From Methanomassiliicoccales archaeon (GTDB lineage Archaea > Thermoplasmatota > Thermoplasmata > Methanomassiliicoccales > UBA472): DNA of 55,966 bases. A program made the translations under genes and the position numbers. Below are positions 291-39,150 of the stretch, in pieces (position 1 is the stretch's first letter; the number at the start of each line of letters is the position of its first letter). The notes under the pieces were generated by a model. That model ran no database searches. It was not told where the DNA came from and saw only the letters and a program-made list of their open reading frames with translations. The DNA is taken from positions 1 to 55,966 of the forward strand of contig JAPKYJ010000018.1 in the NCBI GenBank assembly GCA_026394375.1. The letters are read 5' to 3'.

Positions 291-1994
291 ATGACCCGGA
301 CCATTGAGACGGACGTCCTCGTGATAGGGGGCGGTGGAGCAGGGCTCCGCGCGGCGATCGAAGCAGCCAGGCAGAATGCTCGCGTTCTGATCGTTGCCCG
401 TTCGGTGCTAGGCAAGGCTCACACCACCATGGCCGAGGGAGGGGTGAACGCGGCATTGGGCAACCGCGACCCGGAGGATTCGGTGGAATCGCATTTCCGG
501 GATACGGTGGTGGAGGGTGCATTCCTCAACGACCAGCGTCTGGTGAAGATCCTGGTGGAGCAGATCGCCGATCGCGTCTACGACCTAGAGGAGTTCGGGG
601 CGGTGTTCGACCGAACCCCCGAGGGTGGGATCGCGCAGCGGTCGTTCGGAGGGCAAAGCCACCCTCGCACCTGCTACGTCGGAGACGAGACCGGTCACGA
701 GATGATAATGTCCCTGGTGGAGGAGGTCCGCCGCAGACATATCCGGCACATGGACGAATTCATGATCACCCGGTTGTTCCGAGATGAGACGCGCTGTTCC
801 GGAGCCTTTGGCATCGAGATGAGCTCCGGCGAATACCTGCTGTTCCGCTCCAAAGCGATCGTGTTGTCCTCTGGCGGAGCGGGGAGCCTGTACAAGGTGA
901 CCTCCAATCCTGACGAGGCGAACGGGGACGGATACGCCATGGCCTATGACATAGGAGCCGAACTCATGGACATGGAGCAAGTACAGTTCCATCCCACGGG
1001 CATGGTCTATCCCGATGCGGTAAGGGGCATCCTTGTGACTGAGGCAGTTAGAGGGGAGGGCGGACTGCTCAAGAACTCTCTGGGGGAGAGATTCATGGGG
1101 CGATACAGTCCGGTCCAGATGGAGCTCTCGCCCCGCGACGTGGTCGCCAGGGCGATCTACTCTGAGATCCAGGCCGGCCGAGGGACGGAAAGGGGGGGCG
1201 TCTACCTGGACATCACGCACAAAGACCCAGAGACCGTGCGAAGGAAGCTCCCGCGCATGGTCAAGCAGTTCCAGACCTTTGCTGACCTGGACATCACCAA
1301 GGCGCCTATGGAGGTCGCGCCTACAGCGCATCATTTCATGGGTGGGGTCAAGATTAGGCCGGAGGACAACCGCTCAACTACCGTCGCAGGTCTATACCTG
1401 GCAGGCGAGGTGGAGGGGGGAGTGCACGGTGGCAACCGCCTGGGAGGAAACGCGCTCGCGGAAACGCAGGTCTTCGGTGCGCGCGCTGGTCTCTATGCGG
1501 CGCAGTACGCCAAACAGATCGGCATGGTCCACATCGACCCTGGTGAGGTCATGGGGGAGGCAGAGCGACTGGATTCCATGTTCCGTTCGGGTGAGAGGCC
1601 CCAAGCCCTGCGGCAGAACATCCGACGCATGATGTGGGACCTTGTTGGCATAGTCCGCAACGAGAAGGACCTAGCGCAGGCGCTGGAAGAAATCCGTTCC
1701 ATGCAAAGGAAGGCTCAAGAGGTAGGGGTCTCAGGAGGCAAGCGCTACAATCCCGAGTGGTATGACGCCATCGCTCTCGGGCACATGCTGGTGGTGGCCG
1801 AGGCCATCATCCTGTCGGCCCTGACGAGAAAGGAGAGCCGAGGGGCGCACTTCCGTTCCGATCATCCGCGCCGGGACGACCAGAATTGGTTCGTCAACCT
1901 TAACCTGATCAAAGGAGAAGACGGAGGTATGAAGGTCTTCTCCACTCCCATCCAGGCAGAGAGTATGCGTCCAGAGGAGGCCAGAGAGGAATGA
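291..1994 (+). CDS. tfrA: Thiol:fumarate reductase flavoprotein subunit (TfrA-like)
   Basis: This is the catalytic FAD subunit of the succinate dehydrogenase/fumarate reductase family. In methanogens TfrAB reduces fumarate with coenzyme M and coenzyme B as electron donors, giving succinate and the heterodisulfide. An N-terminal dinucleotide fold (VLVIGGGGAGLRAA) is followed by family motifs HTTMAEGGVNAALG, QFHPTGMVYP, RGEGG, HFMGGVKI and GNRLGGNALAE, and by the usual C-terminal helical domain. At 567 residues it is a typical length. The ATG at 291 follows GAGGTCGG and is where family members begin. It shares an ATGA overlap with tfrB, whose HdrB-like half makes the thiol-dependent enzyme more likely than a membrane succinate dehydrogenase; no membrane-anchor genes are present. 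The family is certain; the natural electron donor is inferred from the partner. Confidence 0.92.
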   Translation: MTRTIETDVLVIGGGGAGLRAAIEAARQNARVLIVARSVLGKAHTTMAEGGVNAALGNRDPEDSVESHFRDTVVEGAFLNDQRLVKILVEQIADRVYDLEEFGAVFDRTPEGGIAQRSFGGQSHPRTCYVGDETGHEMIMSLVEEVRRRHIRHMDEFMITRLFRDETRCSGAFGIEMSSGEYLLFRSKAIVLSSGGAGSLYKVTSNPDEANGDGYAMAYDIGAELMDMEQVQFHPTGMVYPDAVRGILVTEAVRGEGGLLKNSLGERFMGRYSPVQMELSPRDVVARAIYSEIQAGRGTERGGVYLDITHKDPETVRRKLPRMVKQFQTFADLDITKAPMEVAPTAHHFMGGVKIRPEDNRSTTVAGLYLAGEVEGGVHGGNRLGGNALAETQVFGARAGLYAAQYAKQIGMVHIDPGEVMGEAERLDSMFRSGERPQALRQNIRRMMWDLVGIVRNEKDLAQALEEIRSMQRKAQEVGVSGGKRYNPEWYDAIALGHMLVVAEAIILSALTRKESRGAHFRSDHPRRDDQNWFVNLNLIKGEDGGMKVFSTPIQAESMRPEEAREE

Positions 1995-3535
1995 ACGACC
2001 AGGTCATCCGGTTCAGAGTCTTCCGCTTTGACCCGGCGGTGGACGAGGAGCCCCATTACGATAACTATGATGTCCCGTACGTGCCAAAGATGCGCATCCT
2101 GGACGCGCTCAATTACATTCACGAGCACCTCGATGGCTCGCTCTCCTATCGCTACATGTGCCGTGCCAGTCAGTGCGGTTCCTGCACGTTGACGGTCAAC
2201 GGACGACCAGGGCCGGCATGCAAGACCGAGGTGCCAATCGATGGCAAGGAAGTGGTGGTGGAGCCTCTACGGATCTTCCCGGTCATCAAGGACCTGGTCA
2301 CGGATATGGAGCGAGGTTACAGCCGGTTCGAGGCCGCCAGACCGTATGTGGAACGGCCCTCCAGACCCTCCAGGCCGGAGGTGGTGAAGGCGGAGGAGAT
2401 AGAGGAGCTCAAACCCCTCCGCTCCTGCATCGAATGCTGGTCCTGCGTGGCCATCTGCCCGGTGGTGAACGAGATCTCCGACGAGTACCTTGGCCCGATG
2501 GGCATGCGTAAGCTGGCCGAGCTCTCACTGGACAAGCGGGATATACTGGACCGCACGAGCATGGCTTTGGTGGAAGGCGTCTACAACTGCACCACCTGCA
2601 AGAACTGCTGGGCGGTGTGCCCGCAGGAGATCCGCGTGCCGGAGAAGGCCATCGAGAAGCTGCGCGCCATGGCCATCAAAAAGGGGCTGGCCCCGCTTCC
2701 TCCGCACAAAGTGGCCATCGCCTCCATCCGCAACTATTGGAACCCGTGGATGGCACCGCGAGCACAGAGGGCGCGTTGGGCGAGGCCCTTGGACCTACCG
2801 GAGAAAGGCGAGACCATGTTCTTCGCTGGCTGCTCTCCCTCTCTGCTCAAGCAGAACTTGGCGGTGGGGACGGTGAAGATACTCAAGCACCTGGGTGAGG
2901 ACGTGGGCTATCTGAGCAAGGAGGAGAGGTGCTGTTCGTCGCCCCTTCTGAGGGTCGGGGAGACAGCCCTCTTCGAGGAGATGGCCAAGGCCAACATCGA
3001 GGCAATGAGGAAAGCGGGGGCGAAGAGGGTGGTGGTCACCTGCGCCGGCTGCTACAAGGCCTGGAAGGAGGACTATCGCGATCATTTCGGGGAGCTGGGG
3101 TTCGAGGTCCTCCATATCTCCGAGGTCATAGAGAGAGCGCTGAAGGAAGGGGGGATCAAGCTCAAGGAGGCCGAAGTCAATCAATGCACGATCACCTACC
3201 ACGACCCTTGTCATCTTGGCCGTGCTGGAGGAGTGTACGAAGCCCCGCGTTTCGTCCTGACCTCCGTTCCAGGCATTAAGCTGGTGGAGATGGAACGCAA
3301 TCGGGAGAACAGTGCCTGTTGTGGCTCTGGAGGGGGAGTGAAGACCGCTCGTCCCTCGCTGTCGACCACCATCGGTTCCACCAGGTTGAGGATGGTCCAG
3401 GCTACCAGGGCGGACGAAGTGGTCTCGTGCTGTCCCTGGTGCGAGCAGAACCTGGAGGACAGCATCAAGGCGGGAGGATATCCTGCCTGGAGGGTGCGCG
3501 ACCTCGTGGACATCGTCTCAGCGGCGCTGGAGTGA
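1991..3535 (+). CDS. tfrB: Thiol:fumarate reductase iron-sulfur/CCG subunit (TfrB-like)
   Basis: This fusion joins an SdhB-type iron-sulfur module to an HdrB-like thiol-oxidising module. The first 100 residues carry a plant-type 2Fe-2S site (CRASQCGSC, then a further Cys). Two 4Fe-4S motifs follow, CIECWSCVAICP and CTTCKNCWAVCP. From about residue 270 there are two CCG domains, each with a Cys, a CC pair and a CxxC: GCSPS/RCCSS/CAGC and DPCHLG/ACCGSGGG/CCPWC. In HdrB such domains bind the noncubane 4Fe-4S clusters where CoM-SH and CoB-SH are oxidised. At 514 residues the fusion is complete. It overlaps tfrA by an ATGA and ends 5 bases before RNase III. The C-terminal half, including an NYWNPWMAPRA linker, strongly resembles that of the LUD fusion at 35691-37712. 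Confidence 0.92.
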   Translation: MNDQVIRFRVFRFDPAVDEEPHYDNYDVPYVPKMRILDALNYIHEHLDGSLSYRYMCRASQCGSCTLTVNGRPGPACKTEVPIDGKEVVVEPLRIFPVIKDLVTDMERGYSRFEAARPYVERPSRPSRPEVVKAEEIEELKPLRSCIECWSCVAICPVVNEISDEYLGPMGMRKLAELSLDKRDILDRTSMALVEGVYNCTTCKNCWAVCPQEIRVPEKAIEKLRAMAIKKGLAPLPPHKVAIASIRNYWNPWMAPRAQRARWARPLDLPEKGETMFFAGCSPSLLKQNLAVGTVKILKHLGEDVGYLSKEERCCSSPLLRVGETALFEEMAKANIEAMRKAGAKRVVVTCAGCYKAWKEDYRDHFGELGFEVLHISEVIERALKEGGIKLKEAEVNQCTITYHDPCHLGRAGGVYEAPRFVLTSVPGIKLVEMERNRENSACCGSGGGVKTARPSLSTTIGSTRLRMVQATRADEVVSCCPWCEQNLEDSIKAGGYPAWRVRDLVDIVSAALE

Positions 3536-4933: not shown

Positions 4934-4987
4934 GCTTCCGGCGATCAACGCAAAACTGAAACCACTTCCCGTTCATTCCTCCATCAG

Positions 4988-5929: not shown

Positions 5930-6004
5930 GCCACTGCGTCCGCTGGAATCTTGAGTGGCGGAAAGGGCGAAAGGGAATCGCAGGAAAAGGGGGAATAGAG
6001 GAGC

Positions 6005-7192
6005 TCAGATTAACTCCTCGAACTCCTTGACCAGGTCGGGAAGCTTCCCCTTAAGCGCCGCCAGGAGGTTGTATACGGACATCGACTTGATGTCGCACTC
6101 CGAGAGCACCTTCACGACCTCGTCCAGCGTCTTGTCGGAAAGGGTGATGAGCTTCTCCTTGGCCATCCAATTGCGCCAGAGCTTGTTCTCCAGCTGGTCC
6201 CGCCACAGCTTCTCATACTTCTGCAAGGCGGCCTCACTGAAGTCTCCAGCTTGAGCGCAATCCCCGAGGACCTCGCCGGCGAACACCGCCTGGATAGTCC
6301 CGTTGGCGATGCCCCCTCCAGTGATGGGGTCTATGACCCTGGCCGCATCTCCGACCAGAAGCAGTCCGTCCGCTATCGCCTTCTCCACCGGTGGTGAGAC
6401 GGAAACGGCTGCGGCCACTGCCTCCAACGGCTGTCCGCATCGTAGCCTCTCATCCTTCTTGATGAACTTGTCCAGATATGCCTTGACCTCTCCCGGGTGC
6501 TTGAGCCTGGAGCCAAGGACGCCCAGTCCAACGTTCGCCGTATCCCCTCCTTTGGGGAAGATCCAAGCGTAGCCACCCGGAGCCACCGATCCGATGAGGA
6601 ACTCACAGAAGTCCGGCTCGGCCTTCAGGTTGGTCATTCGGTACTGGAAGCAGGAGGTGATGTCCGAAGGCTTGATGGTCGTATTGAGGCCGCCCCATCG
6701 TCCCACTTGCGATTCGTAGCCATCGGCACCGACCACGCACTTGGCGGTGATCTTGATTGGCTCGCCGAAGCTCGTGCCCACGATGCCGCGCACCTTGCCT
6801 TCATCCTTGATCAGGCCGGTGGCAGCGGTCTTGAGCATGATCTCCGCGCCCGCCCGGGCCGCATCCGCCGCCAGAGCCTTGTCGAACAAGTGCCGGTTGA
6901 GCACCAGCCCGACCTCGTTGCCGGCGTTCCTTTCGTCCAGGCGGAAGACGTTGCCGTTGGGGGAAACGATCTTCGCACCTGCGATCTCCGTCGAGATCCA
7001 GCTCCTGTCGATCTTGAGCTTGGCCTTCTCCAACCCTTCGCGAGAGATGCCTTCTGCGCAACGAAGGGACGCGCCAATCTCCTGGCGCTTCTCGATTAGG
7101 AGCACCTTGGCGCCCTTCTTGGCCGCGTGCAGAGCGGTGACGCTACCTGCCGGTCCGGCGCCGACCACGATGACGTCGTAGTCGAACTTCAT
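6005..7192 (-). CDS. Geranylgeranyl reductase (archaeal lipid saturation)
   Basis: A flavoprotein of the digeranylgeranylglycerophospholipid reductase family, which saturates the double bonds of the isoprenoid chains of archaeal membrane lipids. The N terminus has the FAD fold VIVVGAGPAGSVTALHAAKKG. This is followed by the family motif ASLRCAEGISREGLEK, a middle GADGYESQVGRW segment, YAWIFPKGGDTANVGLGV, and the second FAD motif LLVGDAARVIDPITGGGI. At 395 residues it is full length. Its ATG overlaps the ferredoxin stop codon as ATGA. The small ferredoxin encoded just upstream is a likely electron donor, because homologues need a low-potential donor. It is the last gene of the tetraether synthase-like operon. 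Confidence 0.93.
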   Translation of the reverse strand: MKFDYDVIVVGAGPAGSVTALHAAKKGAKVLLIEKRQEIGASLRCAEGISREGLEKAKLKIDRSWISTEIAGAKIVSPNGNVFRLDERNAGNEVGLVLNRHLFDKALAADAARAGAEIMLKTAATGLIKDEGKVRGIVGTSFGEPIKITAKCVVGADGYESQVGRWGGLNTTIKPSDITSCFQYRMTNLKAEPDFCEFLIGSVAPGGYAWIFPKGGDTANVGLGVLGSRLKHPGEVKAYLDKFIKKDERLRCGQPLEAVAAAVSVSPPVEKAIADGLLLVGDAARVIDPITGGGIANGTIQAVFAGEVLGDCAQAGDFSEAALQKYEKLWRDQLENKLWRNWMAKEKLITLSDKTLDEVVKVLSECDIKSMSVYNLLAALKGKLPDLVKEFEELI

Positions 7193-7380
7193 TTCTTTCC
7201 CTCCATCCTAATAGCGCCCACGGGGCACAGCTTGACGCAGCGGCCGCAGCGGTTGCAGGCGTCGCTGAATGCCAGCAGCACCTCGGCCAAGTAGATGGCG
7301 TTCTGGGGGCAGGAACCGACGCAAGCCCCACAATGCATGCACTTCTCATTGTTGACCTTCGCCCAGGTCGCCTCGCTCAT
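7189..7380 (-). CDS. Small 2[4Fe-4S] ferredoxin
   Basis: A 63-residue dicluster ferredoxin with two classical motifs, CMHCGACVGSCP at 14-25 and CNRCGRCVKLCP at 42-53. The ATG at 7380 overlaps the stop of the radical SAM gene (ATGA), and its own stop overlaps the next start in the same way, so the three proteins are translationally coupled. A longer reading frame exists upstream, but only inside the radical SAM gene. Lying between a radical SAM enzyme and a geranylgeranyl reductase, both of which need low-potential electrons, it probably serves one or both. The partner assignment is inferred from position. Confidence 0.93.
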   Translation of the reverse strand: MSEATWAKVNNEKCMHCGACVGSCPQNAIYLAEVLLAFSDACNRCGRCVKLCPVGAIRMEGKK

Positions 7381-8927
7381 GTATATTCCGCCCCTCTGGT
7401 CTTGCGCCACTCCTCCAATGGCACGGAAAACTTCTTCTCGATCTCCGTGCGGTACGTCGGGCCGCTGTTGTAGGCGCAGAAGGGGATGATGCGGTTGTCC
7501 GGCGTGGTGTAATGGATGGCACACCTCTTGACCCGCTCGATATCGTAGTTGTAGCCATCCTGGAAATGCATACCCCCTACGAACATCATGTTCCAGGAGA
7601 ACTCCGACAAGCTCTTCTTCGACGAATCACCGAGCACGGTATTCATCATCTGCAGGAACTTGACCAAATCCAGTCCTTCCGGAGCTTTGTCTTTGTCGAC
7701 GTACTTCTTCAGGATGTTGAATGCCTTAACTTTCTGGGGGAATTTGACCTTGGCCTTGTCCGCTTTCAGCGAGAGGGCGTAGAGCTCCTTGAAGAGAGGT
7801 TCCACGTCCACGAACCTTGTGAGCGGAATGATGTGGTCCTGGTCCTGGACGAAAAGGTACGTGGCCAAGCCGCAGTGCGGGTGGGTGGTGAAAGTGACCT
7901 TCGACTCTCCTAATAGTGCCGAGATCAAGGTGGACACTGGCACTACCGACGGCACAGGGTAAAAGTCCGCTTTGGTCACCTTGCCGGTCTGCTTCTCCAG
8001 GTCCTTCACCAGGTCGGGAAGGGTATAGCGCTGCTTGGCCCTCTCATCCTGGTCGATGCGGCCCGTGAATGCCACCGGCTGATAGTTGATGCCTCTGATG
8101 ACATCTATGTTCTCCACGGCATAGCGGAATATCTCGCCCACCTGATCGTCGTTGATGCCTTTGACGATGGTCGGCACGAGCACGATGGAGGGCTTCTTCT
8201 GGAGCTTGCGCACGTTCTCGATGACCTTCTTCTTCGTTTCCACGAGGGGTGCGCCGCGCGAGGCCATGTAGATATCATCGGTCAGACCGTCGAACTGCAG
8301 GTAGATGGTGTTCAAGCCTGCGTCCACCGCCTCTCTCAGGAATTCTGGCTCCTTGGCGAAACGGATGCCGTTGCTGGCGGCCTGGATCTGGGAGAAGCCT
8401 AGCTCCTTCGCCTTCTTGATGACGTCCACGAAGCGGGGGTAGATGGTCGGCTCACCGCCAGAGAACTGCACCGCCGGGGTCGGGACCGGGCGTTCCTCGC
8501 GCAGCATGGTGAGCATTTTCGCAACTTGTTCGTAACTCGGCTCGTAGACGTAGCCGGCGGCGTTCGCGTTGGCAAAACAGATGGGGCACTTGAGGTTACA
8601 GCGATTGGTGAGGTCGACGTTGGCCAGGGCGGTATGGGACAGATGCAATTGGCATAACCCACATTCGTTCGGGCAGACCTTGGCGTTGGGGATGGCCGGG
8701 TTCTCTACCCCTATACCGTCATAAGCGAAGTTCTCCGCCTTCAGGTACATCTCGACGTCGGACCAGTAGACGTCCGTGGTCTTACCATGCTCCGGGCAGC
8801 TCTTCTCGATCATCACCTTGCCATCCCTCTCATAGAGCGAGGCGATGATGATCTTCTTGCACTCTGGACAGAGAGACCCCGTCTTCTTGGGGAGCCCTTT
8901 CTGGAGACCGCTCTCTTTCGCGATCAT
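7377..8927 (-). CDS. tes: Radical SAM enzyme, probable tetraether lipid synthase (Tes-like)
   Basis: A 516-residue radical SAM protein. The radical SAM cluster motif is CNLKCPIC (C110, C114, C117), followed by SGGEPTIYP near residue 155. The N-terminal part carries more cysteines, CPEC at 20-23, SCPEHG at 43-48 and CPNECGLC at 85-92, which fit extra metal sites. This arrangement and length match the Tes family (MJ0619-like), which joins two archaeol lipids tail to tail to make membrane-spanning tetraethers. The ATG at 8927 lies about 35 bases after a TATA element. The operon with a ferredoxin and an isoprenoid reductase supports a lipid role. A related MJ0619-type methylase is the main alternative; the assignment comes from motifs and context, not from a comparison I could run. 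Confidence 0.8.
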   Translation of the reverse strand: MIAKESGLQKGLPKKTGSLCPECKKIIIASLYERDGKVMIEKSCPEHGKTTDVYWSDVEMYLKAENFAYDGIGVENPAIPNAKVCPNECGLCQLHLSHTALANVDLTNRCNLKCPICFANANAAGYVYEPSYEQVAKMLTMLREERPVPTPAVQFSGGEPTIYPRFVDVIKKAKELGFSQIQAASNGIRFAKEPEFLREAVDAGLNTIYLQFDGLTDDIYMASRGAPLVETKKKVIENVRKLQKKPSIVLVPTIVKGINDDQVGEIFRYAVENIDVIRGINYQPVAFTGRIDQDERAKQRYTLPDLVKDLEKQTGKVTKADFYPVPSVVPVSTLISALLGESKVTFTTHPHCGLATYLFVQDQDHIIPLTRFVDVEPLFKELYALSLKADKAKVKFPQKVKAFNILKKYVDKDKAPEGLDLVKFLQMMNTVLGDSSKKSLSEFSWNMMFVGGMHFQDGYNYDIERVKRCAIHYTTPDNRIIPFCAYNSGPTYRTEIEKKFSVPLEEWRKTRGAEYT

Positions 8928-8963
8928 CTTTGTGACACCTTGGACGTTGGTAAAACCAGTGAA

Positions 8964-8996
8964 GATTTAATACTATTGTAGCTATAGGCGCTACAA
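8964..8996. promoter_or_regulatory. Shared divergent promoter with perfect inverted-repeat operator
   Basis: The 77-base gap between the tetraether synthase-like gene (leftward) and the TrmB-type regulator gene (rightward) holds one AT-rich core, GATTTAATACT. It reads as a TATA element on both strands (minus-strand form TATTAAATC). Next to it, 8976-8996 is a perfect inverted repeat: TTGTAGC, seven bases, GCTACAA. It lies between the core and the regulator start at 9005, and directly upstream of the core for the leftward operon. That position suits autorepression of the regulator and control of the lipid operon by the same protein. Confidence 0.65.
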
Positions 8997-9004
8997 ATGA
9001 TAGA

Positions 9005-9763
9005 ATGAATCTCATCGATGTTCTCAGTCTGGACCTCGATTCGATCGGGGAAGAATACAATAAAATCGCAGCGATCCTAAGCAAGATAGGTCTATCCGAC
9101 TACGAATCCAAGGCCTACGTGGCGCTCATCGCCAAGAACCACGCCACGGCGGAGGAGATTGCGGAGCTGGCAAGAATACCGAGGACCTCGGCGTACAAAG
9201 CGCTCCAGTCGCTCAAGGAGAAGAGGTTCGTGACGCTCACCGAGGGAAGGCCGGCGATATTCCACGCCATTCCGATCGAGGAGACAAGGGAGTCCGTTCT
9301 CGAAGAGATCAAGGACACGTTCGATAAGTTGCACATGATCCAAGGAATGCTGAGCGAGAGGGGCACGCCTCAACTCGTCTACACGATATCTGGAAGGAAG
9401 GGTGTGCTTTCTAAGATCGGGGAGATGCTCGATTCAGCCACCCGCAGTTTCATCATCTCCACTCCGGTGATGGCGGAGATCAGGAATGAGCATGCGCAAC
9501 GCTTCCGGGACGCGGTCAAGCGGGGGGTGGAGGTGGTGATCATCGCCGAGCCTTCGGTCAAGATGCCGGAAAGCACCCGCGTCCACCGGAGAAAAGACCT
9601 CCTGGCGACGGACGTCATAAGCGATGGACGCACAGCCATGATAGCTTCTCCCGACCTATCACTTTGTGGCTATTCTGACAACCCCTTCATCTCTTCCCAC
9701 CTGGAGAATTTCATCCGCATGTCGGTGGAGAGGCTAGAGAAAGAGGAAGAGCGGAAGGCCTGA
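9005..9763 (+). CDS. TrmB-family transcription regulator
   Basis: A 252-residue regulator. Residues 15-80 form a TrmB-type winged helix (SKIGLSDYESKAYVALI, then ATAEEIAELARIPRTSAYKA, the recognition helix region). A helical linker (about 95-120) and a C-terminal effector domain follow, with a phospholipase D-like fold typical of the family (RSFIISTPVMAEIR, VEVVIIAEPSV). The ATG at 9005 lies 8 bases after the inverted repeat, so the transcript is probably leaderless or nearly so. It is divergent from the tetraether synthase-like operon, with the operator in between, which makes that operon its likely target. Many TrmB proteins sense sugars; the ligand here is unknown. Confidence 0.88.
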   Translation: MNLIDVLSLDLDSIGEEYNKIAAILSKIGLSDYESKAYVALIAKNHATAEEIAELARIPRTSAYKALQSLKEKRFVTLTEGRPAIFHAIPIEETRESVLEEIKDTFDKLHMIQGMLSERGTPQLVYTISGRKGVLSKIGEMLDSATRSFIISTPVMAEIRNEHAQRFRDAVKRGVEVVIIAEPSVKMPESTRVHRRKDLLATDVISDGRTAMIASPDLSLCGYSDNPFISSHLENFIRMSVERLEKEEERKA

Positions 9764-9881
9764 CGCTTCATCGTCATCCTTCGTGTATCCTCTTTTCATA
9801 GGCTTGCCTCCTGCCATACTGTTCGATGAAGGCTGCAGTTAGCTTGTGACGCTTTAAGAAGCGGAGCCTCTCGCCCCACTC

Positions 9882-12800
9882 ATGAGGCGCATTTCCTTCT
9901 TTACCAGGCGTGGAACCTTTCTCAGTGGGGCAGATCGCAGCCGACTCGGTCAGATGTCCTTCGCCCTTGCCGCCGTGCTCATCATGGTGCTCGCGGGGGC
10001 CAGCGTGGCTGTTCTTTCGAGCATCGAGGATCACGAGCAGAGTTCGCGGGATTTGGACGCCTACCTCGAAGGCATGCTCCGAATGGCGGAGGAAGAGCGA
10101 ATGGTCCTGGAAAGGAAAGCGTACGCGGAAGCCCTGCGCACGGTCCAGAGCAATCCCTTGGCGAACGAGAGCACGTTGGGTTCGCTTTTCGAGGCAAGTT
10201 GGGACGAACGACTGCGGGTGGATTATCCCAGGCATTCTTCCTCTTTCTCTTTGGACGTGCAGCGGAACTCCGTCGCCTTATCGTTCCTCCGTCTGAGCGC
10301 TGGCGAGGTGACCCAATGGGGGCAGAGCGGAGGCGGGACCGCTCAGCTGACCAATGTCACGATACCCTCCTACTTGACGGTCACCGGCAACGTCACTTTC
10401 AACGTATCCTGCGGGAACGGATACTTGTTGAAGACGGAGGACATGGACAGTCGTCTGTACCTGCCAGTGCCCCTGCTGCAGAACCGCTTGGAGGCGTTCG
10501 CCTCTGCCGTCAGCGGCGACAAGAACCACTTCGAGAACATCGTGCGATACGAGCTCTCTGCCCTGGTACAGAAGCGGGCGCTGGCTCGTTTGGACCGATT
10601 TGGCCTTTGCTCTCCCACTGCTCTCCTGACAGAACAGGACGTAGAGAACGCTGTCAACCTGGCCGTGGTGCTGGAGGAGGTGCGACTCTTCCGCAACTAC
10701 GATCTCTCCAACACATTTTCCATACTAGCAGGAATGGCCTCCTCCGAGGAGGCGCTGCAGCTGGCGGAGCGGACGCTCGCATCTCGTGGTCAACTGGACC
10801 CGGCCGACCTCTTCCTTTCCCTTCTTGGGGAGGACCAGTTGGACACGAGGACCGTTGTCGCGCAGAGCTTGTTCGCCGCCGCCGATGGCTTGGTGCTCAG
10901 GTGGTTGGACTACCTGCACGTGATGGACCTGGGGCGCTTCCTGGAAGGGGCAGTGGAAAGCGTCCAGCTTACGATATCGAACGTGCTCAGCGCGCTGTTC
11001 GGGGGCGACCCGACGAATGAGCTCGCCTTGGATTGGATGCGAAAGCGCTTGGACGCCGCTGGTGTTCCCGAGAGCGAGTATCGTTACCTCAACTGTGGTT
11101 CCCCGGATTTTCTCATTGAGATACCTCACCGCACCATCTCCGTACTGAACGACGACGGAGAGACCGTGTTGTTTGAGCTAGAGGGGCTCCAGGAACTGGA
11201 TTTCCCATCCCTCGACCTTATCTCCTCGCCGGAATGGCGTTCGTTCTACGTTGACTACAAGGCCAGCACCTTCGAGATGGGGGAGGCGCTGGAGCAATTC
11301 GTCAAGAGCGTTGCCATGGGCGTGGCAGAGAACCTGGACCTGGAGCAAGTGGGGCTCAGGCTCGATCCCATGGACCAGGAATGTTTCCTTTCTGAGCTGG
11401 ATGAGGCGCTTGAAGGTGCGCTGAGCGCAGGGAATGGTTGGCTGGATCTAGCCGTGGCCAAGGCATCCCACGCCCAGCGACTGCACGACGGCATGGCGCT
11501 CGCCTTCGTCACGTTCGTTTCCTCCCGCTGGATGGAGATATTCCAGGCCAACCGTTCGGTCAATTGGGCGCTTTCAAAGATGGCATACCAGCTGGCCAAC
11601 GACTCCCTGGCAGGAGAGGGGTTCGGGCCGGAGGCGCTGAAGGCAGCCGGCCAAAGCATCGCTTGGGACATGGTGCTGGACACATCCTGGGGGATCAGAG
11701 AAACGGCCATGGAGGCCTTCTATCGGAGAGTGGAGGGGCGCATTCAACTGTTCGATGCCGTCTTCAGCAACGTGACCATAGATGGTCATGGATTCTCCCT
11801 CAACGATGCCGTGGTGCGCCTGGCCTTGGGCGCGATAGGCATGGTGCCCGGAGCGGGGGAAGTGGTGCGACGTCTTGCCATGCGGATGATCGACGACCTG
11901 GAACAAGGCAGCCGCCTACGCGGTGATAAGGTGACGATAGCGCTGCACGGCCTCGGGCCTCTGCCTTTGCGCCTGGAGAACGAGGTGGTGGCCAAGGAAG
12001 AACTGCTGCCCCAAGTGCAAATGCCTTGGACGACGGGGGATGGGCTGCTCGAAGTGAGCATCAAGTACCCATTCCAGTACGCCCGTGAGGCGGAGGACTA
12101 CCCCAACCGTCGTGTCACCGACCTGAACAACCTCACCCTCTGCCCCTTCCAGAGTCAGTTCGAGGTGGCGGTCAGAGGGCAGCTCCAACTGACGCTTGGC
12201 TGTTCTGGCGAGCTCTCGTCCATTGCCGGTGGCTCACCTCAGGCAAGCGCCAACGTGCCATTCGATTTCCGTTTCGGGCTCTGCACCAGCAGCGGGTGGC
12301 CCTTGGACGGAGTGGACTACCGGCCCACGATGACCGCCCTCAAGCAGATGGAACAGGTCTTCCAGGCCATATGGGATGGCATCGTGGGTGCGCTCCAATG
12401 GGCCTGGGATGGGATCAACTCCATCTTCTCCTTCCTCCAGGATGTGGTGTCGACCGTACTCTCCTACGCGATGCAGGCGGTTCAGTGGTTGTCGGACCTG
12501 GTGACGCAGGTGGTCCAAGGGATCAAGGACATCCTGGAAAGCGGTTTCTCCTCCTTCGCCGAATGGCTGGGTCGGACGGTCACCGACACGGTGGGCAAGA
12601 TCAAGGTGTCCTTCAGCCTGCTTGGCATCCAGTTCCTCTTGGAGACGGATGTTAACGACATCCCCTATGGCCGGAGCCGAGACTATCTTCGTTTGACAGG
12701 TACCGTGGACTTGGGTGGCACCAAGCTAAGCCTGACCATGCGTGTAGCCAGCATCTACAAGAAAGGCACGGACATCGTCTTCAACAGCACCATGTTGGGA

Positions 12801-14156
12801 GATGGTTGGGTGGCCAAGGGCACGTTCGATCCGCTCATGATCGTTTGCGACCACCTCTTCGAGCTGGTCGGGTCTTTCCCCAGCTTCGTGATCGAGCTCT
12901 GCATGCCCAAGATCGTGCAGTACGATGTCCTGCGGTTCTCCCTGGCGGACGTGCCAGGCATCGGTGCTTTCCTGTCCCGCATCCCCCTTCCCATTCCCGG
13001 CCTCACGGGTTCCATCGACGCTGGCTTCGAGCTCAAATACAACCGTCCGATCAATGACCACGTGGTCATAAACGAGGTGGAGCTCAATCCTCAGGGTGCC
13101 GATGCTGGAAGGGAATGGGTCGAGCTCTACAATCCATCTGCCATGGACGTGGAGGTCTCCGGCTGGTATCTGGAGACCTCGCACGGCTCGCAGGAAGTGG
13201 ATGCCATCGAGGACGAGGTCATTCCTCCGCGGGGCTATCTGGTGCACGTGTTCCCGAAATTGATGCTGGACAACGGAGGTGAGCACGACGCCCCGCTGGG
13301 TGAATCTGTGGTGCTCCGGGATGCCTCTGGCACCAAGGTCGATTCCACTCAGTTCCTCACCGACTACTACGGCGATGGTCGCACCTGGCAGAGGAAGACC
13401 GACGGAGCGGAGAGCTGGACGTTCAAGGATGGGACCCGGGGCAGCAGGAACCACTTCCAGACGGTGGTGATGAACGACCGCGATGTGATGATGCATGCTC
13501 TGGGGGAGGCAGCCCTGCGAGCTTTCGGCCGCTTCGCCAGTGCCAACGCATTCAGCCTGGATTCGCTTGCCAGTCTGATCACCGGCGTGATCAAGGAAGT
13601 GCTGGACACGGTGATCGACATTCTGGCCGATGCGGTGGTGGAGATGGGCCTGTTCTTGGAACTTAAGCTGCAGGACTGCACTCAGAGCTTCAGCGGTTCC
13701 CTGCGTCTCAGCCTCTTGGTCACGGGTGACTTCGTGAGGGAGGGGCTGCAATGGATCGCCGACGCGGTCCGTTCTGCCCTATGCGGTTTCGCCAACCCGG
13801 CTGCCGCGATGCCGAAGGCGCACTCTCTGGACGAGTTGCTGGATGATGTGTACATTCGGTTTGGAGCCTACGGTCAGGCGGGGCTTCCCCGCATCCTAGG
13901 TTCGATTGGCGATGGGGTCAAGTTCAGCTTCGGCGGGCAGATCCAGGTGAACCTTGCTGCATTCATCCCTCCTAGGCACGGACCTCAGAACTGGAGCGTG
14001 GTCTTCGGGGTCTTATTCGAGGGCATCGATGGGCGCTACCTGAGCACGCTCTTCAACACAGATGCGGACAAACTGGTGGACTGCTGGGTGTTGTGGGCTT
14101 CACTGCATGCCAACGGGCAGAACCAGGGGAACGCGATCGAGGTGAGGGGCATGTGA
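9882..14156 (+). CDS. Giant exported protein with lamin-tail domain
   Basis: A 1424-residue protein of unknown function. Near residue 25 the sequence RSRLGQMSFALAAVLIMVLA resembles an archaeal type IV pilin-like or TadE-like leader: basic residues, then G-Q, then one hydrophobic helix. The remainder would lie outside the membrane. A long helical part follows. A strongly amphipathic, tryptophan-rich stretch covers about 822-905 (AIWDGIVGALQWAWDGINS and similar). A lamin-tail domain covers about 1063-1195 (VVINEVELNPQG, REWVELYNPS, GRTWQRKTDG). No enzyme motif was seen. The ATG at 9882 has no clear Shine-Dalgarno sequence. It precedes an MscS channel and an antiporter on the same strand, suggesting a cell-envelope region. 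It may be an envelope scaffold or pilus-associated protein; I am unsure. Confidence 0.85.
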   Translation: MRRISFFTRRGTFLSGADRSRLGQMSFALAAVLIMVLAGASVAVLSSIEDHEQSSRDLDAYLEGMLRMAEEERMVLERKAYAEALRTVQSNPLANESTLGSLFEASWDERLRVDYPRHSSSFSLDVQRNSVALSFLRLSAGEVTQWGQSGGGTAQLTNVTIPSYLTVTGNVTFNVSCGNGYLLKTEDMDSRLYLPVPLLQNRLEAFASAVSGDKNHFENIVRYELSALVQKRALARLDRFGLCSPTALLTEQDVENAVNLAVVLEEVRLFRNYDLSNTFSILAGMASSEEALQLAERTLASRGQLDPADLFLSLLGEDQLDTRTVVAQSLFAAADGLVLRWLDYLHVMDLGRFLEGAVESVQLTISNVLSALFGGDPTNELALDWMRKRLDAAGVPESEYRYLNCGSPDFLIEIPHRTISVLNDDGETVLFELEGLQELDFPSLDLISSPEWRSFYVDYKASTFEMGEALEQFVKSVAMGVAENLDLEQVGLRLDPMDQECFLSELDEALEGALSAGNGWLDLAVAKASHAQRLHDGMALAFVTFVSSRWMEIFQANRSVNWALSKMAYQLANDSLAGEGFGPEALKAAGQSIAWDMVLDTSWGIRETAMEAFYRRVEGRIQLFDAVFSNVTIDGHGFSLNDAVVRLALGAIGMVPGAGEVVRRLAMRMIDDLEQGSRLRGDKVTIALHGLGPLPLRLENEVVAKEELLPQVQMPWTTGDGLLEVSIKYPFQYAREAEDYPNRRVTDLNNLTLCPFQSQFEVAVRGQLQLTLGCSGELSSIAGGSPQASANVPFDFRFGLCTSSGWPLDGVDYRPTMTALKQMEQVFQAIWDGIVGALQWAWDGINSIFSFLQDVVSTVLSYAMQAVQWLSDLVTQVVQGIKDILESGFSSFAEWLGRTVTDTVGKIKVSFSLLGIQFLLETDVNDIPYGRSRDYLRLTGTVDLGGTKLSLTMRVASIYKKGTDIVFNSTMLGDGWVAKGTFDPLMIVCDHLFELVGSFPSFVIELCMPKIVQYDVLRFSLADVPGIGAFLSRIPLPIPGLTGSIDAGFELKYNRPINDHVVINEVELNPQGADAGREWVELYNPSAMDVEVSGWYLETSHGSQEVDAIEDEVIPPRGYLVHVFPKLMLDNGGEHDAPLGESVVLRDASGTKVDSTQFLTDYYGDGRTWQRKTDGAESWTFKDGTRGSRNHFQTVVMNDRDVMMHALGEAALRAFGRFASANAFSLDSLASLITGVIKEVLDTVIDILADAVVEMGLFLELKLQDCTQSFSGSLRLSLLVTGDFVREGLQWIADAVRSALCGFANPAAAMPKAHSLDELLDDVYIRFGAYGQAGLPRILGSIGDGVKFSFGGQIQVNLAAFIPPRHGPQNWSVVFGVLFEGIDGRYLSTLFNTDADKLVDCWVLWASLHANGQNQGNAIEVRGM

Positions 14157-33899: not shown

Positions 33900-35210
33900 T
33901 CAGCGGATCGCTCTCTTCAGCTTGCGGAGCACGTCCTGGGGGTCGTGTCCCAACAATCTGATCATGGCTTCTTTCCCCACTCCACCCCGGTCGAAGATCA
34001 CGTCAGGCACCTTCCCGGTCCGCTCGATGACGGTCCGAGTGCCCCATTCCATGGTCTTCTCTCCCTCAGGCTCATCCTCCCGATCGAAACTGGCAACCTT
34101 CAGTCTGGATTCCTTCATCTGATCCACGTGGGTCTGAGAATAGCGTAGGTTGAGGGCCGAGCGAGCTTTTGGATCGAAATGCATGGCCGTGAGCACGATC
34201 CTGGAGACGTGTCTTGACGCTCCGAAGGCGAAGCAGCCCGAACGAGCGACCTTCTTTCCTGAACCGACGATCCTCCCTTCAAGCGCGCAGACATCCTCAA
34301 AGTAGCGCGCTTGCGGCAGAGCGTAGACGAAATTGATGCCCACCTCTGGCACCCATTCCCGGGAAAGGATGCGCTCCAGCTCATCGGTCGCCTCCTTGAG
34401 CGACAACATCACCGAGTATCGCTGTTCCTCCCTTCTCAGACTGGCCAGGGGGTCCGCGATCTCCAGCCCCTTGCCGACCGGGTAATGCGATTCGATGGCC
34501 TCGGCGATGCGCCCTTTGGCCTGCACCACCGCTTCCTTCAGCTCGATCCCCTTCGCAAGGTAGGCCGTGATGAAAGATGATAGGTCGCACCCGCTCCCGT
34601 GGACCTTGATCAGAATGCGTGGATAGCGAAGCTCGGTGAACTCGTGCTCGGAGTACAGAATGTCGACGGCTGCTTCCCCTTCGAAGTGCCCGCCCTTGAG
34701 CAGCACTGCTTTCGGGCCATGGCGGGAGATGCGTTCGCACGCCTTCCTCGCCTCCTCCCGGTCGACGATCTTCAGACCCGAGAGCACCTCCGCCTCGTGG
34801 CGGTTGGGGGTGACACAGCTGGCCAGGGGCAGCAACTCCCTCTTCAGCGTCTCCACCAGGTTCTCCTGGTGCAGCGAATCCCCCACTCCCGCCACCAGCA
34901 CCGGGTCCACGACCAAAGAGAATCCTTTCCCTTTGAGCCTGGAGGCCACCAGGTGCGCAATGCCCCTATTGTAGAGCATGCCGGTCTTGACCGCTTTGAC
35001 CTTGGCATCGGCCAGCACCATCTCCAGCTGCGATCGCACATGCTCTAAGGGAATGGGTAGGATGTCCGAGACCCGTTGGGTGTTCTGGGAGGTTATGCAG
35101 GTGATGACCGTGGCGGCATGCACTCCCACCGCGGCCATGGCCTTGATGTCCGCCTGGATGCCCGCCCCACCGATGGAATCGGAGCCTGCTATGGCGAGAG
35201 CCACGACCAT
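33900..35210 (-). CDS. thiDN: ThiD-ThiN fusion (thiamine phosphate synthesis)
   Basis: A 436-residue bifunctional enzyme. Residues 1-250 are hydroxymethylpyrimidine/HMP-phosphate kinase ThiD, a ribokinase-like fold with ALAIAGSDSIGGAGIQADIK, VKTGMLYNRGIAHLV, DPVLVAGVGDSL and the active-site VHGSGCDLSSFITAYL. From about 260 to the end is ThiN, the archaeal thiamine-phosphate synthase that replaces ThiE (VPEVGINFVYALPQARYFED, VARSGCFAFGASRHVSRIVL, DVIFDRGGVGKEAMIRLLG). The unusual point in the kinase active site is GC in place of the common GTGC. A TATA element, ACTTTAAATC, at 35231-35240 on the minus strand lies 21-30 bases before the ATG. Confidence 0.95.
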   Translation of the reverse strand: MVVALAIAGSDSIGGAGIQADIKAMAAVGVHAATVITCITSQNTQRVSDILPIPLEHVRSQLEMVLADAKVKAVKTGMLYNRGIAHLVASRLKGKGFSLVVDPVLVAGVGDSLHQENLVETLKRELLPLASCVTPNRHEAEVLSGLKIVDREEARKACERISRHGPKAVLLKGGHFEGEAAVDILYSEHEFTELRYPRILIKVHGSGCDLSSFITAYLAKGIELKEAVVQAKGRIAEAIESHYPVGKGLEIADPLASLRREEQRYSVMLSLKEATDELERILSREWVPEVGINFVYALPQARYFEDVCALEGRIVGSGKKVARSGCFAFGASRHVSRIVLTAMHFDPKARSALNLRYSQTHVDQMKESRLKVASFDREDEPEGEKTMEWGTRTVIERTGKVPDVIFDRGGVGKEAMIRLLGHDPQDVLRKLKRAIR

Positions 35211-35299: not shown

Positions 35300-35674
35300 A
35301 TGCTAATGAAGGCCATTAGCGGGCATTTCGTGCTGAAAGGCAGAAAAGACTACCGCGATATAGCCAAGGTGTTCCCCGAGGTCCTCACCACCTTCCTAGA
35401 GGAGACGGACCAGATGCCTGAGGACAAGGAGGTGTTGGAGATGTTCATCCACCTCAACCAAACGGAGCTGCAGCGGAACAGCAAGCCCGAGGGCTACAAC
35501 CGCAAGGGCCGGATGAGATTGGTCTTCCCATTGACGCGCAAGGAATTCTACGTACGGGGCACGGCCAGCAGCAGCGAAGTGGTGAGGATAACAGAGAAGA
35601 TCAGCAAGATCCTCAGTAAGGGCGGAGTGGACCACGAGGTGGAGTGGAACGCCCTGTCCTCCGTCGAAGAGTGA
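35300..35674 (+). CDS. Small unknown protein
   Basis: I do not recognise this 124-residue soluble protein. It is rich in charged residues, with a probable alpha-beta fold: a first strand AISGHFVLKGRKDYR, a helix FPEVLTTFLEETDQM, a basic middle NRKGRMRLVFPLTRKEFYVRG and a last helix VVRITEKISKIL. The start is ATG 35300 or ATG 35306; AAAAGTTAAGTATCC at 35271-35285 gives a promoter at leaderless distance. It ends 16 bases before the LUD/iron-sulfur protein, so the two probably share a transcript and may share a function. Confidence 0.75.
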   Translation: MLMKAISGHFVLKGRKDYRDIAKVFPEVLTTFLEETDQMPEDKEVLEMFIHLNQTELQRNSKPEGYNRKGRMRLVFPLTRKEFYVRGTASSSEVVRITEKISKILSKGGVDHEVEWNALSSVEE

Positions 35675-35690: not shown

Positions 35691-37712
35691 ATGCGCTCCG
35701 AAGACATAGCATGGAGGAAGCGCATCGATAGGTGCGTGGACGACCCCCATTCCCTGGATGGGATGCGGGCGGCCTTCAGGACCACGATCGACCGTCAAAA
35801 GGAGAACGTCTCGAAGATATCGGACCTGGAGGGGCGGAGGAAGAGGGCGAAGGACGTCCGTCGCCTCTCTCTTGCGGACGGGAAGCTCTTGGCGCAGGCG
35901 ATGGAACGCATGCGAGCGAACCGCCTACGCGTGCTCGGTCCATTCTCCAGGGCGGAGGCCCAGGAGGCGGTGCTGCGCGAGCTCGGGGATGAGGTTCTGG
36001 TCGTCAAGTCGAAGTCCAACGTCACCAAGGAGATAGAGCTCACCAAGTTCCTAGAGAAGCACGGCAAGAAGGTCATCGAGACAGATGCCGGGGACCGCAT
36101 CATTCAGATCGCCGGAAGGAAGCCAGCACATCCTACAGGTCCGGCCGTGGACCTCACCCGTTACCAGGTGGCGGAGATCATGGGCAAGCACTTCGGAGAG
36201 GATATCGATCCCGACCCGGAGATACTGACCCACATCATCCGGGATGAGGTCCGGTCATACATCGACAAGGCGAAGATAGGCATCACCGGTGCCAACTATC
36301 TGACCGCCGAGGAAGGGGCGGCGCTCATAATCCACAACGAGGGAAATGCGGCGGAATGCGCCCGCCGTCCGCTCAAGCATATCATCGTCACCGCCACGGA
36401 CAAGGTCGTGCCCGACCTGGATGAGGCCATCAACCTGGCAAAGCTGCAGACCTATTACGCCACCGGCAAACTGGTCAGCCAGTATATCAACGTCATCAGT
36501 GGACCAAGCATGACCGCGGACATCGAGAAGAAGACCTTCTACGGCATGCACGGGCCGGAGGAGGTGGTCGTGGTCTTGGTGGACAACGGACGTTCCTCAG
36601 TGCCGGACGAGGAAATACTGGATTGCATCAACTGCGGCAGCTGTCTGCTCCGTTGCCCGGTGTATGACATCGTGGGGAAGGAGTTCGGAGGGCCCGCCCA
36701 CCTAGGGGGGAGGGGCGTGTGCTTCACCGCCAGCACCGATTCCATGGAGTCCTCGGTCAAAGGCGGTCTGGCGCTGTGCACGAGCTGCGGGCTCTGCACT
36801 GAGATGTGCCCGGTGAGCATCGATATCCCTAAGCTCATGCGTGAGACCAGAACATCGGCTGTGAATGGCCTAGGCCCGTTGGCGCCGGAGCACGACGTCC
36901 TGGCCAAGAGCGTGCGCAACTATCACAACCCCTGGATGCAGCCCAGGGCGATGAGGGCGAAGTGGGCCCGGGGATTGGAGCTGAAAGACAAAGGCCCGGT
37001 GCTCTATTTCGCCGGTTGCTCGCATTCGCTTCTCAGCCCAGAGGTGTCTCGAAGCACCATCGCCCTGCTTCGCCGCGGCGGTTTGGATGTTTCCTATCTT
37101 GCTGGTGAGGAGCTGTGCTGCGGTTCAGTGCTTCTGAAGACCGGGCAGCGAGAGGCCTACGAGCGGGTGCGGGACGAGAACGTCAGGAAGATATTGGCCT
37201 CTGGCGCCAGCAAGGTGATCACCGCCTGCCCTGGTTGCTTCAATGCCCTTTCCCATTATCGAGACGAAGTCGATGGATTCAAGATGGAGGTCGAGCACGT
37301 CACCCAGACGCTCGCCCTTCTACTGGAGGAAGGCAGGCTGCGCTTTGGTGGTGCACCTGTCAAAGTCACCTACCATGACCCCTGTGACCTGGGCCGTCAT
37401 GGCAAGGTGTTCGAAGCTCCCCGGAATATGCTGAGGTCGATGCCCGGGGTGGAACTGGTGGAGATGGGCGAGAACCGCGCTCGGTCCGTGTGCTGCGGTT
37501 CAGGAGGGGGCGTGAAGACCGCCTTCCCGCGGCTGGCGACCTCCATCGGCGCGAAGCGCATCGCTCAGGCACAGGAGACAAGGGCGCAGCTTCTGCTGAC
37601 CGCCTGTCCGTGGTGCGAGGCGAACCTCCGCGATTGCCAGAGGGGCGATGAGAACAAGCTGGAAGTGGACGACCTAGTGAGCTTCCTGGAGTCGCGGCTC
37701 ATTCCTTCGTGA
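35691..37712 (+). CDS. LUD-domain/iron-sulfur/CCG-domain oxidoreductase fusion
   Basis: A 673-residue fusion of the three parts of LutABC-type lactate-utilisation systems. The LUD domain spans about 80-310 (IGITGANYLTAEEGAALI, HNEGNAAECARR, KHIIVTATDKVVPDLDEAI). Two 4Fe-4S motifs follow, CINCGSCLLRCP near 312 and CTSCGLCTEMCP near 362. Two CCG domains occupy about 435-660 (FAGCSHS/LCCGS/CPGC and DPCDLG/VCCGSGGG/CPWC). CCG domains bind the noncubane clusters that handle thiols and disulfides in HdrB. It may oxidise lactate or another hydroxyacid and pass electrons to a disulfide; substrate and acceptor are unknown. The C-terminal half is a close paralogue of TfrB at 1991-3535. It overlaps the convergent argH end by 14 bases. 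Confidence 0.85.
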   Translation: MRSEDIAWRKRIDRCVDDPHSLDGMRAAFRTTIDRQKENVSKISDLEGRRKRAKDVRRLSLADGKLLAQAMERMRANRLRVLGPFSRAEAQEAVLRELGDEVLVVKSKSNVTKEIELTKFLEKHGKKVIETDAGDRIIQIAGRKPAHPTGPAVDLTRYQVAEIMGKHFGEDIDPDPEILTHIIRDEVRSYIDKAKIGITGANYLTAEEGAALIIHNEGNAAECARRPLKHIIVTATDKVVPDLDEAINLAKLQTYYATGKLVSQYINVISGPSMTADIEKKTFYGMHGPEEVVVVLVDNGRSSVPDEEILDCINCGSCLLRCPVYDIVGKEFGGPAHLGGRGVCFTASTDSMESSVKGGLALCTSCGLCTEMCPVSIDIPKLMRETRTSAVNGLGPLAPEHDVLAKSVRNYHNPWMQPRAMRAKWARGLELKDKGPVLYFAGCSHSLLSPEVSRSTIALLRRGGLDVSYLAGEELCCGSVLLKTGQREAYERVRDENVRKILASGASKVITACPGCFNALSHYRDEVDGFKMEVEHVTQTLALLLEEGRLRFGGAPVKVTYHDPCDLGRHGKVFEAPRNMLRSMPGVELVEMGENRARSVCCGSGGGVKTAFPRLATSIGAKRIAQAQETRAQLLLTACPWCEANLRDCQRGDENKLEVDDLVSFLESRLIPS

Positions 37713-39150
37713 GCAGTCGGGAGTATGCGCGCAGCAGTCTCCGCTTCTCCTTTCTTGCTTTGGTGCGAGTGGCCATTACCTCATCCTCCGCCCGTTCGAT
37801 CTGCCTGCGCACGGTCACGGGCGAAGTCCCTCCATAGGAGCACCGGCGGTCCATGCAGCTCCTCAGCGGAAGCACCTGATAGATGTCTTCCTCGATGCGG
37901 TCGCTATACTTTCGCATCTCTGCCAGGCTCATCTCCTCGAGTCTCTTCCCTTGGTCGATGGCCTTCCGTACCACTCTGCCAGTGATCTCGTGCGCCGTAC
38001 GGAAGGGGATGCCCTTGGTCACGAGATAGTCCGCGAGCTCGGTGGCGTTCAGGTGGCCCCGCTCGCAGGCCGCGAGCATCCTCTCCCGGTCGAACTCGAC
38101 CGTCGAGAACATGCCCTCGGCGATCTCCAGACTGGGGAGCAGCACGTCCAAGGTTGAGAACGTCAGCGCCTTGTCCTCCTGCAGATCGCGGTTATAGGTC
38201 AATGGCAATCCCTTGAGCAGGACGAGCATCGAACCTAGGTCCCCGATGACCCGGGCGGAACGTCCACGCATCAGCTCGGCCACGTCCGGGTTCTTCTTCT
38301 GTGGCATTATTGAGCTCCCAGTAGCGTAGGCGTCGCTCACCTCGGCGAACCCGAACTCAGGCGAGGACCAGATCACCAATTCCTCGCTCATGGAGGAGAG
38401 ATGGGTCATGGTGCTGGCACAGCAGAACAACAGCTCCGCCGCGAAATCGCGATCGCTCACCGAGTCCATGGAGTTGCTTGTCGGGGCCGCGAACCCCAAG
38501 ACTTTGGCTGTGTGGTGTCGGTCGATGGGGTAGGTTGTGCCGGCTAGAGCCGCTGCTCCCAGGGGGCAGAGGTTGAGCCTCTGGTAGGAGTCGAGGAAGC
38601 GCGAGGCATCGCGCTGCAACCGGGCCTCATGCGCCATCAAGTGGTGCGCCAAACTCACTGGCTGAGCGTGCTGCATGTGCGTGAAGCCGGGCATCACGGT
38701 CTCCAGGTTCTCCTTTGCTCTCTTGATGAGCGTGAGCTGCAGAGCCCCGACCAGCTCCACTGCCTCCAGGGTCGCATCCCTTAGATACATGCGGAGGTCC
38801 GTCGCCACTTGGTCATTGCGGGAACGGGCGGTATGCAGTCTCGCCCCTGCCTCTCCGATGCTCTCGGTGAGCAGGAACTCGATGTTGGTGTGGACGTCCT
38901 CCAGCTTCTCTGATAATGTCAGCTGTCCCTGCTCGATCTGCTTCAGGATGGAACGCAATCCCTTCACTATCTTGTCGACATCGACCTGGGGCAGGATGCC
39001 CTGCCGCCCCAGCATCTGCGCGTGGGCCACCGAGCCCACGACGTCATACCAGGCCAGGCGGTGATCGACAGAGATGGAAGAGGTGTATGCGAGCGTCTGA
39101 TCACTCGCTATTCGTCTGAATCTCCCCGACCACAGGACCTGTTTGCTCAC
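37699..39150 (-). CDS. argH: Argininosuccinate lyase
   Basis: It splits argininosuccinate into arginine and fumarate, the last step of arginine synthesis. The 483-residue protein belongs to the fumarase/aspartase superfamily. It begins with LWSGRF, and has EDVHTNIEFLL, ARLHTARSRNDQVATDLRMY, GFTHMQHAQPVSLAHHLMAHE and the mobile signature loop GSSIMPQKKNPD. The GTG at 39150 restores the family N terminus and overlaps the end of argG by 50 bases, showing one transcript. The fumarate it releases could feed TfrAB. Confidence 0.96.
   Translation of the reverse strand: MSKQVLWSGRFRRIASDQTLAYTSSISVDHRLAWYDVVGSVAHAQMLGRQGILPQVDVDKIVKGLRSILKQIEQGQLTLSEKLEDVHTNIEFLLTESIGEAGARLHTARSRNDQVATDLRMYLRDATLEAVELVGALQLTLIKRAKENLETVMPGFTHMQHAQPVSLAHHLMAHEARLQRDASRFLDSYQRLNLCPLGAAALAGTTYPIDRHHTAKVLGFAAPTSNSMDSVSDRDFAAELLFCCASTMTHLSSMSEELVIWSSPEFGFAEVSDAYATGSSIMPQKKNPDVAELMRGRSARVIGDLGSMLVLLKGLPLTYNRDLQEDKALTFSTLDVLLPSLEIAEGMFSTVEFDRERMLAACERGHLNATELADYLVTKGIPFRTAHEITGRVVRKAIDQGKRLEEMSLAEMRKYSDRIEEDIYQVLPLRSCMDRRCSYGGTSPVTVRRQIERAEDEVMATRTKARKEKRRLLRAYSRLLTKE

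Follow-up and report, generated by a model that had tools for sequence, protein, structure and literature searches.

A LUD, iron-sulfur and CCG fusion protein of Methanomassiliicoccales with a LutC-type site and a TfrB-related tail

A conserved subfamily of proteins joining a LUD domain, two 4Fe-4S motifs and two CCG domains in a single chain was recognised in Methanomassiliicoccales. The subfamily is separate from LdhH, and its redox tail is sister to that of TfrB, the iron-sulfur/CCG subunit of fumarate reductase (CoM/CoB). New here, as judged from the aligned sequences, is that the LUD domain of the fusion keeps a LutC-type site (PSxTADIE...HGP) which is absent from the sampled LutB and LdhH proteins. 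Our best guess is that the protein acts as a 2-hydroxyacid (or related acid):disulfide oxidoreductase. A literature search covering titles and the opening parts of abstracts returned no description of the fusion in Methanomassiliicoccales.

The fusion gene lies in a window of 55,966 nucleotides, the whole stretch of DNA that was analysed, which corresponds to contig C18 of a draft genome of 1.73 Mb (99.84% complete). Features of the window are listed in Table 1. Pfam placed LUD_dom at residues 68–297 (E = 2.7e-35), Fer4_8 at residues 309–377 and CCG in two stretches (E = 2.3e-33) and, together with the open reading frame and a motif scan, confirmed the content given in an earlier sequence-only reading of this DNA, namely a LUD domain, a pair of 4Fe-4S motifs and two CCG domains. 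A profile search of the whole draft genome gave 26 CCG matches and one LUD match, and no second LUD was found. A cluster at locus L124 (G000, contig C17, approximately positions 4487–13133) contains an 871-residue Cys-rich protein, a 635-residue protein bearing four CCG motifs, proteins of 276 and 294 residues with one CCG string each, and a 380-residue CCG protein. The window itself also encodes a protein of 1424 residues (9882–14156), in which a lamin-tail is the only domain recognised by Pfam.

Table 1. Position of the fusion gene, its domains and the genes discussed with it in the window.
Feature	Position	Strand	Basis
LUD-FeS-CCG fusion protein, 673 aa	35691..37712	+	ORF and Pfam domains
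LUD head, LutB-like overall	35892..36581	+	PF02589; head tree
LutC-type site SGPSMTADIEKKTFYGMHGP, aa 270-289, H287 matching LutC H201	36498..36557	+	Alignment column
Two 4Fe-4S motifs, CxxCxxCxxxC at aa 312 and 363	36615..36821	+	PF13183, motif scan, (nearly) invariant Cys
CCG domain 1: C443, C476/C477, C513, C516	36999..37250	+	PF02754, complete five-Cys motif
CCG domain 2: C565, C601/C602, C639, C642	37365..37631	+	PF02754, complete five-Cys motif, HdrB-like predicted fold of CCG pair
TfrB, FeS-CCG subunit of fumarate reductase (CoM/CoB); sister family of the fusion tail	1991..3535	+	NF004898, tree
TfrA-like flavoprotein, the other catalytic head	291..1994	+	NF004900
124-aa protein upstream of the fusion; widespread Thermoplasmata gene	35300..35674	+	Class-wide genome matches
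thiDN, divergent neighbour, kept beside the 124-aa gene	33900..35210	-	Pfam
argH, convergent neighbour of the fusion	37699..39150	-	TIGR00838, 597 bits

The tail of the fusion aligned with the TfrB of the window at 42% identity over 371 residues (E = 2e-95). Both proteins carry a pair of CxxCxxCxxxC motifs and two CCG motifs, as had been read from the letters; the CCG motifs are complete in both and equally spaced (C-x32-CC-x35-CxxC and C-x35-CC-x36-CxxC). TfrB consists of Fer2_3, Fer4_8 and two CCG stretches according to Pfam, and scores 442.6 bits with NCBIfam profile NF004898, above the cut-off of 385, against 219.9 bits for the fusion; the TfrA-like protein reaches 698.3 bits, just below the NF004900 cut-off of 718. 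TfrB thus has the same Fer4 and CCG tail as the fusion, but TfrB alone has an N-terminal 2Fe-2S domain, for which Pfam gave no Fer2_3 match in the fusion, and the flavoprotein partner TfrA. The linker NYxNPWMxPRAxRAxWAR, to which the sequence-only reading had drawn attention, was discarded as a diagnostic signature: bacterial HdrD-like proteins contain almost the same sequence, e.g. NYDNPWMQPRTQRDRW, and a search with a looser pattern missed the linker in 8 of the 17 fusions.

In a tree of the Fer4 and CCG regions (66 rows by 377 columns), 16 fusions formed one clade (100/99), sister to five TfrBs (99/96); the TfrB rows of the tail trees include none from other methanogen phyla. This tree comprised 66 of 79 rows, with five long or tandem proteins and eight more left out, among the latter the G031 fusion, GlcF and L072. 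An earlier tree, from which only the same five long or tandem proteins were excluded (71 of 76 rows), gave fusions and TfrBs as sisters at 98/96. AU tests rejected holding the fusions with LdhH (p = 0.0084, cost 50.9 log units) or with the archaeal HdrD-like proteins, which form a separate clade (p = 0.0013, cost 43.3 log units), as well as holding TfrB with the HdrD-like proteins (p = 0.003, cost 40.3 log units). The groupings with HdrD and LdhH had been set by the comparison that accompanied the sequence-only reading, i.e. whether the two tails are nearer to each other than to LutA or HdrD, and the exact rows were chosen after the 71-row tree. A CCG-only tree (237 columns) combined 46 of the 66 rows with 12 LutA/LdhH proteins, leaving out both TfrBs of a second type, the G093 and G099 fusions, GlpC and others. 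Here, bacterial LutA together with bacterial and haloarchaeal LdhH separated at 100/100, the order among the fusion, TfrB and HdrD-like groups was not resolved, the fusion group held weakly (37/22) and five archaeal LutA lay on long branches without a firm place.

The fusion and TfrB tails were accordingly nearer to each other than to bacterial LutA and, on the longer alignment, than to HdrD. The idea of one redox tail used with two catalytic heads is supported by the sisterhood of fusion and TfrB and by the AU rejections, and more weakly by the CCG-only tree. The tail had also been called a close paralogue of TfrB; the kinship stands, but ‘close’ was an overstatement. Since the fusion family spans archaea and bacteria, including Actinomycetota, the split is old, and the fusion tail and TfrB are old sister families rather than recent paralogues. 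The TfrB-like proteins of the second kind, L087 (G004) and L088 (G012), score 402 and 359 bits with the TfrB profile, and their CCG tails fall outside the window-type TfrB clade in the Fer4 and CCG trees. In the tail tree, the fusion relatives L164 and L165 (G093 and G099) have a long branch (1.6), although by their heads they belong firmly with the fusions.

CCG proteins of the HdrB/HdrD type are defined by two C-x31-39-CC-x35-36-CxxC motifs. The two motifs of the fusion agree with this definition, and both were complete in 17 of 17 fusions (C-x31/32-CC-x34/35-CxxC and C-x35/38-CC-x36-CxxC). Complete motifs were also found in TfrB, in HdrD-like proteins and in the LdhH protein L182, so that on their own they do not set the fusion apart. 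In the same motif scan, E. coli GlpC lacked CxxC at its first site and GlcF lacked it at both. In an AF2 model of the fusion, the CCG pair was modelled with pLDDT values of 59–94 for ten-residue blocks over residues 421–673. The closest solved structure was EtfD (9ojn), with a Z-score of 29.4; Z was 23.2 for LutA of an integrative LutA-LutB model and 21.6–22.2 for HdrB (rmsd 2.7–2.8 over 233 residues). The model thus gave an HdrB-like predicted fold for the CCG pair (Z about 22); the LUD half was mostly below pLDDT 50. EtfD is a longer chain of 1042 residues, which we take to have no LUD head and not to be a disulfide reductase. Because EtfD is the closest match and the motifs of L182 are complete as well, the CCG pair is no proof of disulfide chemistry.

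In the LUD tree, from which 15 of 52 LUD proteins were left out, 16 fusion heads formed one clade (100/99) apart from LutC and from LutB/LdhH, and the LdhH heads grouped with LutB (99/98), not with the fusions. The simplest reading of the head and tail trees together is that a LUD domain was joined to a CCG tail twice independently, once in the fusion and once in LdhH.

The LUD domain of the fusion bears the LutC-type segment PSxTADIE...HGP. At the column of LutC H201 in 64 aligned LUDs, His was present in 17/17 fusions and 11/11 LutC, against 0/7 LutB and 0/5 LdhH; this count does not take in six stand-alone LUD proteins that belong to another class, several further LUD matches and three loci without an ORF. 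His was counted by alignment column because a text scan for HGP matched another place in the LutB of Gemmatirosa, a protein counted with LutB, with no LutC in the 6.3 kb examined there. Archaeal LutB-like proteins of family f8 had the His as well (4/4), while it was absent from a divergent G076 protein (0/1) and from the other archaeal LutB-like proteins (0/19), all of which have Thr at this column and keep the T, D and I of the TxDI part. All but one of these 19, the exception being G317 with two LUD matches, come from genomes with one LUD match, and these His-less proteins speak against a tidy rule for the His. Seven other archaeal carriers of the fusion that were sampled have one LUD match each; in G422, two additional LUD genes, neither with HGP, lie apart from the fusion gene. 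H201 and R204 of LutC are named in PMC3924224, where a catalytic role of H201 is proposed from conservation and docking and the precise roles of LutA, LutB and LutC are called unclear. An HGPR segment is present in 2g40, and its equation with H201/R204 is our own. Judged by its residues, the LUD site of the fusion looks self-sufficient.

Full-length relatives of the fusion, one of them truncated where its contig ends, occur in nine of 61 genomes around that of the window, its own included. Others were found in families f11 and f42 of Thermoplasmata's phylum, Thermoplasmatota, and in 4 of 246 Actinomycetota; the nearest, at 63% identity, are at two Methanomassiliicoccales loci. The order thiDN, 124-residue gene, fusion is kept in G000, G025, G028, G037, G285 and G416, and the fusions of G023, G093 and G099 have other neighbours. 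The 124-residue protein does not appear to be a dedicated partner, as had been considered: matches to it were found in 319 of 350 Thermoplasmata genomes, and its gene is directly beside an argH-like ORF (recognised by N-terminal resemblance) in G004, G005, G006 and G010, in which no full-length fusion was found. Of ten loci examined around this gene, nine contain thiDN. The protein has no Pfam match; its predicted arrangement is ferredoxin-like (AF2 pLDDT 78), and no match stood out in a structure comparison of the model. As the 124-residue gene is widespread and adjoins the argH-like ORF where no full-length fusion was found, the fusion gene has been gained or lost within a stable block, and its neighbourhood there says little about its role. 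No HdrA/HdrC-type gene was seen among the fusion neighbours examined in the window.

Within the 61 genomes, a TfrB spanning the 2Fe-2S part was found in 6/9 fusion genomes, one of the six scoring under the cut-off, versus 1/52 others (Fisher p = 1e-5, uncorrected for shared ancestry). For the window-type TfrB the counts were 5/9 versus 0/52 (p = 2e-5, likewise uncorrected). Pfam-confirmed CoA-transferase genes lie upstream of the fusion in three of the four Actinomycetota carriers, with both subunits just upstream in G484 and a single subunit in G637 and in G518; the ORFs listed near the G422 fusion include none. AMP-binding and ARMT1-like genes are near the Actinomycetota fusions too, confirmed by Pfam in G484 and G422 and assigned by resemblance in the other two.

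By analogy with its LUD relatives, the fusion would act on a hydroxyacid. DVU3033, with the same domains as the fusion, and its partner DVU3032 are needed for normal growth of Desulfovibrio vulgaris on L-lactate according to PMC4481167. Imported lactate is an unlikely substrate of the fusion, because a lactate permease was found in 0/17 carriers (0/7 among the more complete ones) and in 4/14 control genomes by the same search; in 3/6 annotated plasmid loci the permease adjoins the Lut/Ldh locus. An internal 2-hydroxyacid is a possible substrate. Regarding the acceptor, the sequence-only reading had pointed to the CoM/CoB thiol pool. MCR is present in the genome of the window and was found in six of the nine carriers within the order, the other three being 93, 88 and 73% complete. 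It was not found in any of the five carriers tested outside the order, two of which are 97% and 92% complete, so the fusion family does not depend on CoM/CoB and this pair was rejected as its general acceptor. In this methanogen, CoM/CoB is a plausible acceptor.

We tentatively favour, with rather less than even confidence, a soluble, single-chain, flavin-free oxidoreductase resembling LutABC, with an HdrD/TfrB-type tail, that would couple the oxidation of an acid to the reduction of a disulfide. The LUD head would bind and oxidise a small organic acid, most likely a 2-hydroxyacid, and a single LUD may suffice because the fusion retains the LutC-type His site, which is missing from LutB. Two electrons would travel via the two 4Fe-4S clusters to the CCG pair, in which each five-Cys site could hold one non-cubane 4Fe-4S cluster, and this pair would reduce the disulfide. 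The obvious disulfide in this methanogen would be CoM-S-S-CoB; carriers without MCR would need another. With potentials of about -190 mV for lactate/pyruvate and about -140 mV for CoM-S-S-CoB, transfer from lactate to the heterodisulfide would be feasible.

It is possible, though in our judgement somewhat unlikely, that the head acts on an acid other than lactate or on a CoA-activated acid and that ferredoxin, ETF or quinone, rather than a disulfide, receives the electrons from the tail, as in EtfD. The CoA-transferase, AMP-binding and ARMT1-like genes in Actinomycetota, the rank of EtfD among the structural matches and the carriers without MCR are consistent with this, but the CCG sites are complete in every fusion, unlike those of GlpC and GlcF, and the tail is sister to the thiol-linked TfrB. 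That same sisterhood, with the co-occurrence of the two families, could suggest a reaction in the direction of TfrAB, in which CoM-SH and CoB-SH supply the electrons, forming the heterodisulfide, and a 2-oxoacid or some other acceptor is reduced at the head; thiol oxidation is the physiological direction of TfrB. We regard this as quite improbable, since pyruvate reduction by CoM/CoB is uphill under standard conditions by the potentials given above and, to our knowledge, the LUD systems studied so far oxidise lactate. DVU3032 and DVU3033 do so according to PMC4481167.

Among known systems, LutABC/LldEFG has the same three modules as the fusion. LutABC spreads them over three genes with two LUDs, a degenerate one in LutB and one with an intact site in LutC, whereas the fusion is one gene with one intact LUD, LutB-like overall with a LutC-type site, and a tail of the HdrD/TfrB type; HdrD and HdrB share with this tail the two complete five-Cys motifs and the predicted fold. 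LdhH/LldH (DVU3033; NF045670), which occurs with LdhG/LldG, is like the fusion a single chain of LUD, two 4Fe-4S and two CCG. In the five LdhH examined, a LutC-type partner is present, the LUD does not have the LutC-type His and the tail belongs to the LutA/LdhH group; the fusion differs in each respect. We regard it as highly unlikely that the fusion is simply an LdhH and thus the large subunit of an L-lactate dehydrogenase that delivers electrons to quinone or another respiratory partner: the domain order is identical and Pfam already has LUD with Fer4_8 and CCG (PMC3924224), but its 355.4 bits with NF045670 compare with an equivalog cut-off of 800 and 1019.7 for the LdhH of G425, both trees place LdhH elsewhere, and a LutC-type gene lies directly upstream in 5/5 LdhH examined, where the His is absent, whereas the fusion has the His in a genome with no second LUD found. 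The fusion looks like a one-chain equivalent of LutABC, separate from LdhH.

A bolder proposal, which we think rather unlikely, is that some Methanomassiliicoccales possess a soluble, one-chain, flavin-free hydroxyacid:heterodisulfide oxidoreductase passing electrons from an internal 2-hydroxyacid to CoM/CoB, and that the LutC-type HGP marks the true catalytic site of LUD proteins, retained in this one-LUD enzyme, with LutB and LdhH having lost it where LutC is present. Since the fusion is a natural one-LUD enzyme with an intact LutC-type site, a single mutation in a single protein would allow a test of which LUD carries out the chemistry. Should CoM-S-S-CoB be the acceptor, an organic-acid input would be added to the heterodisulfide pool of the methanogen.
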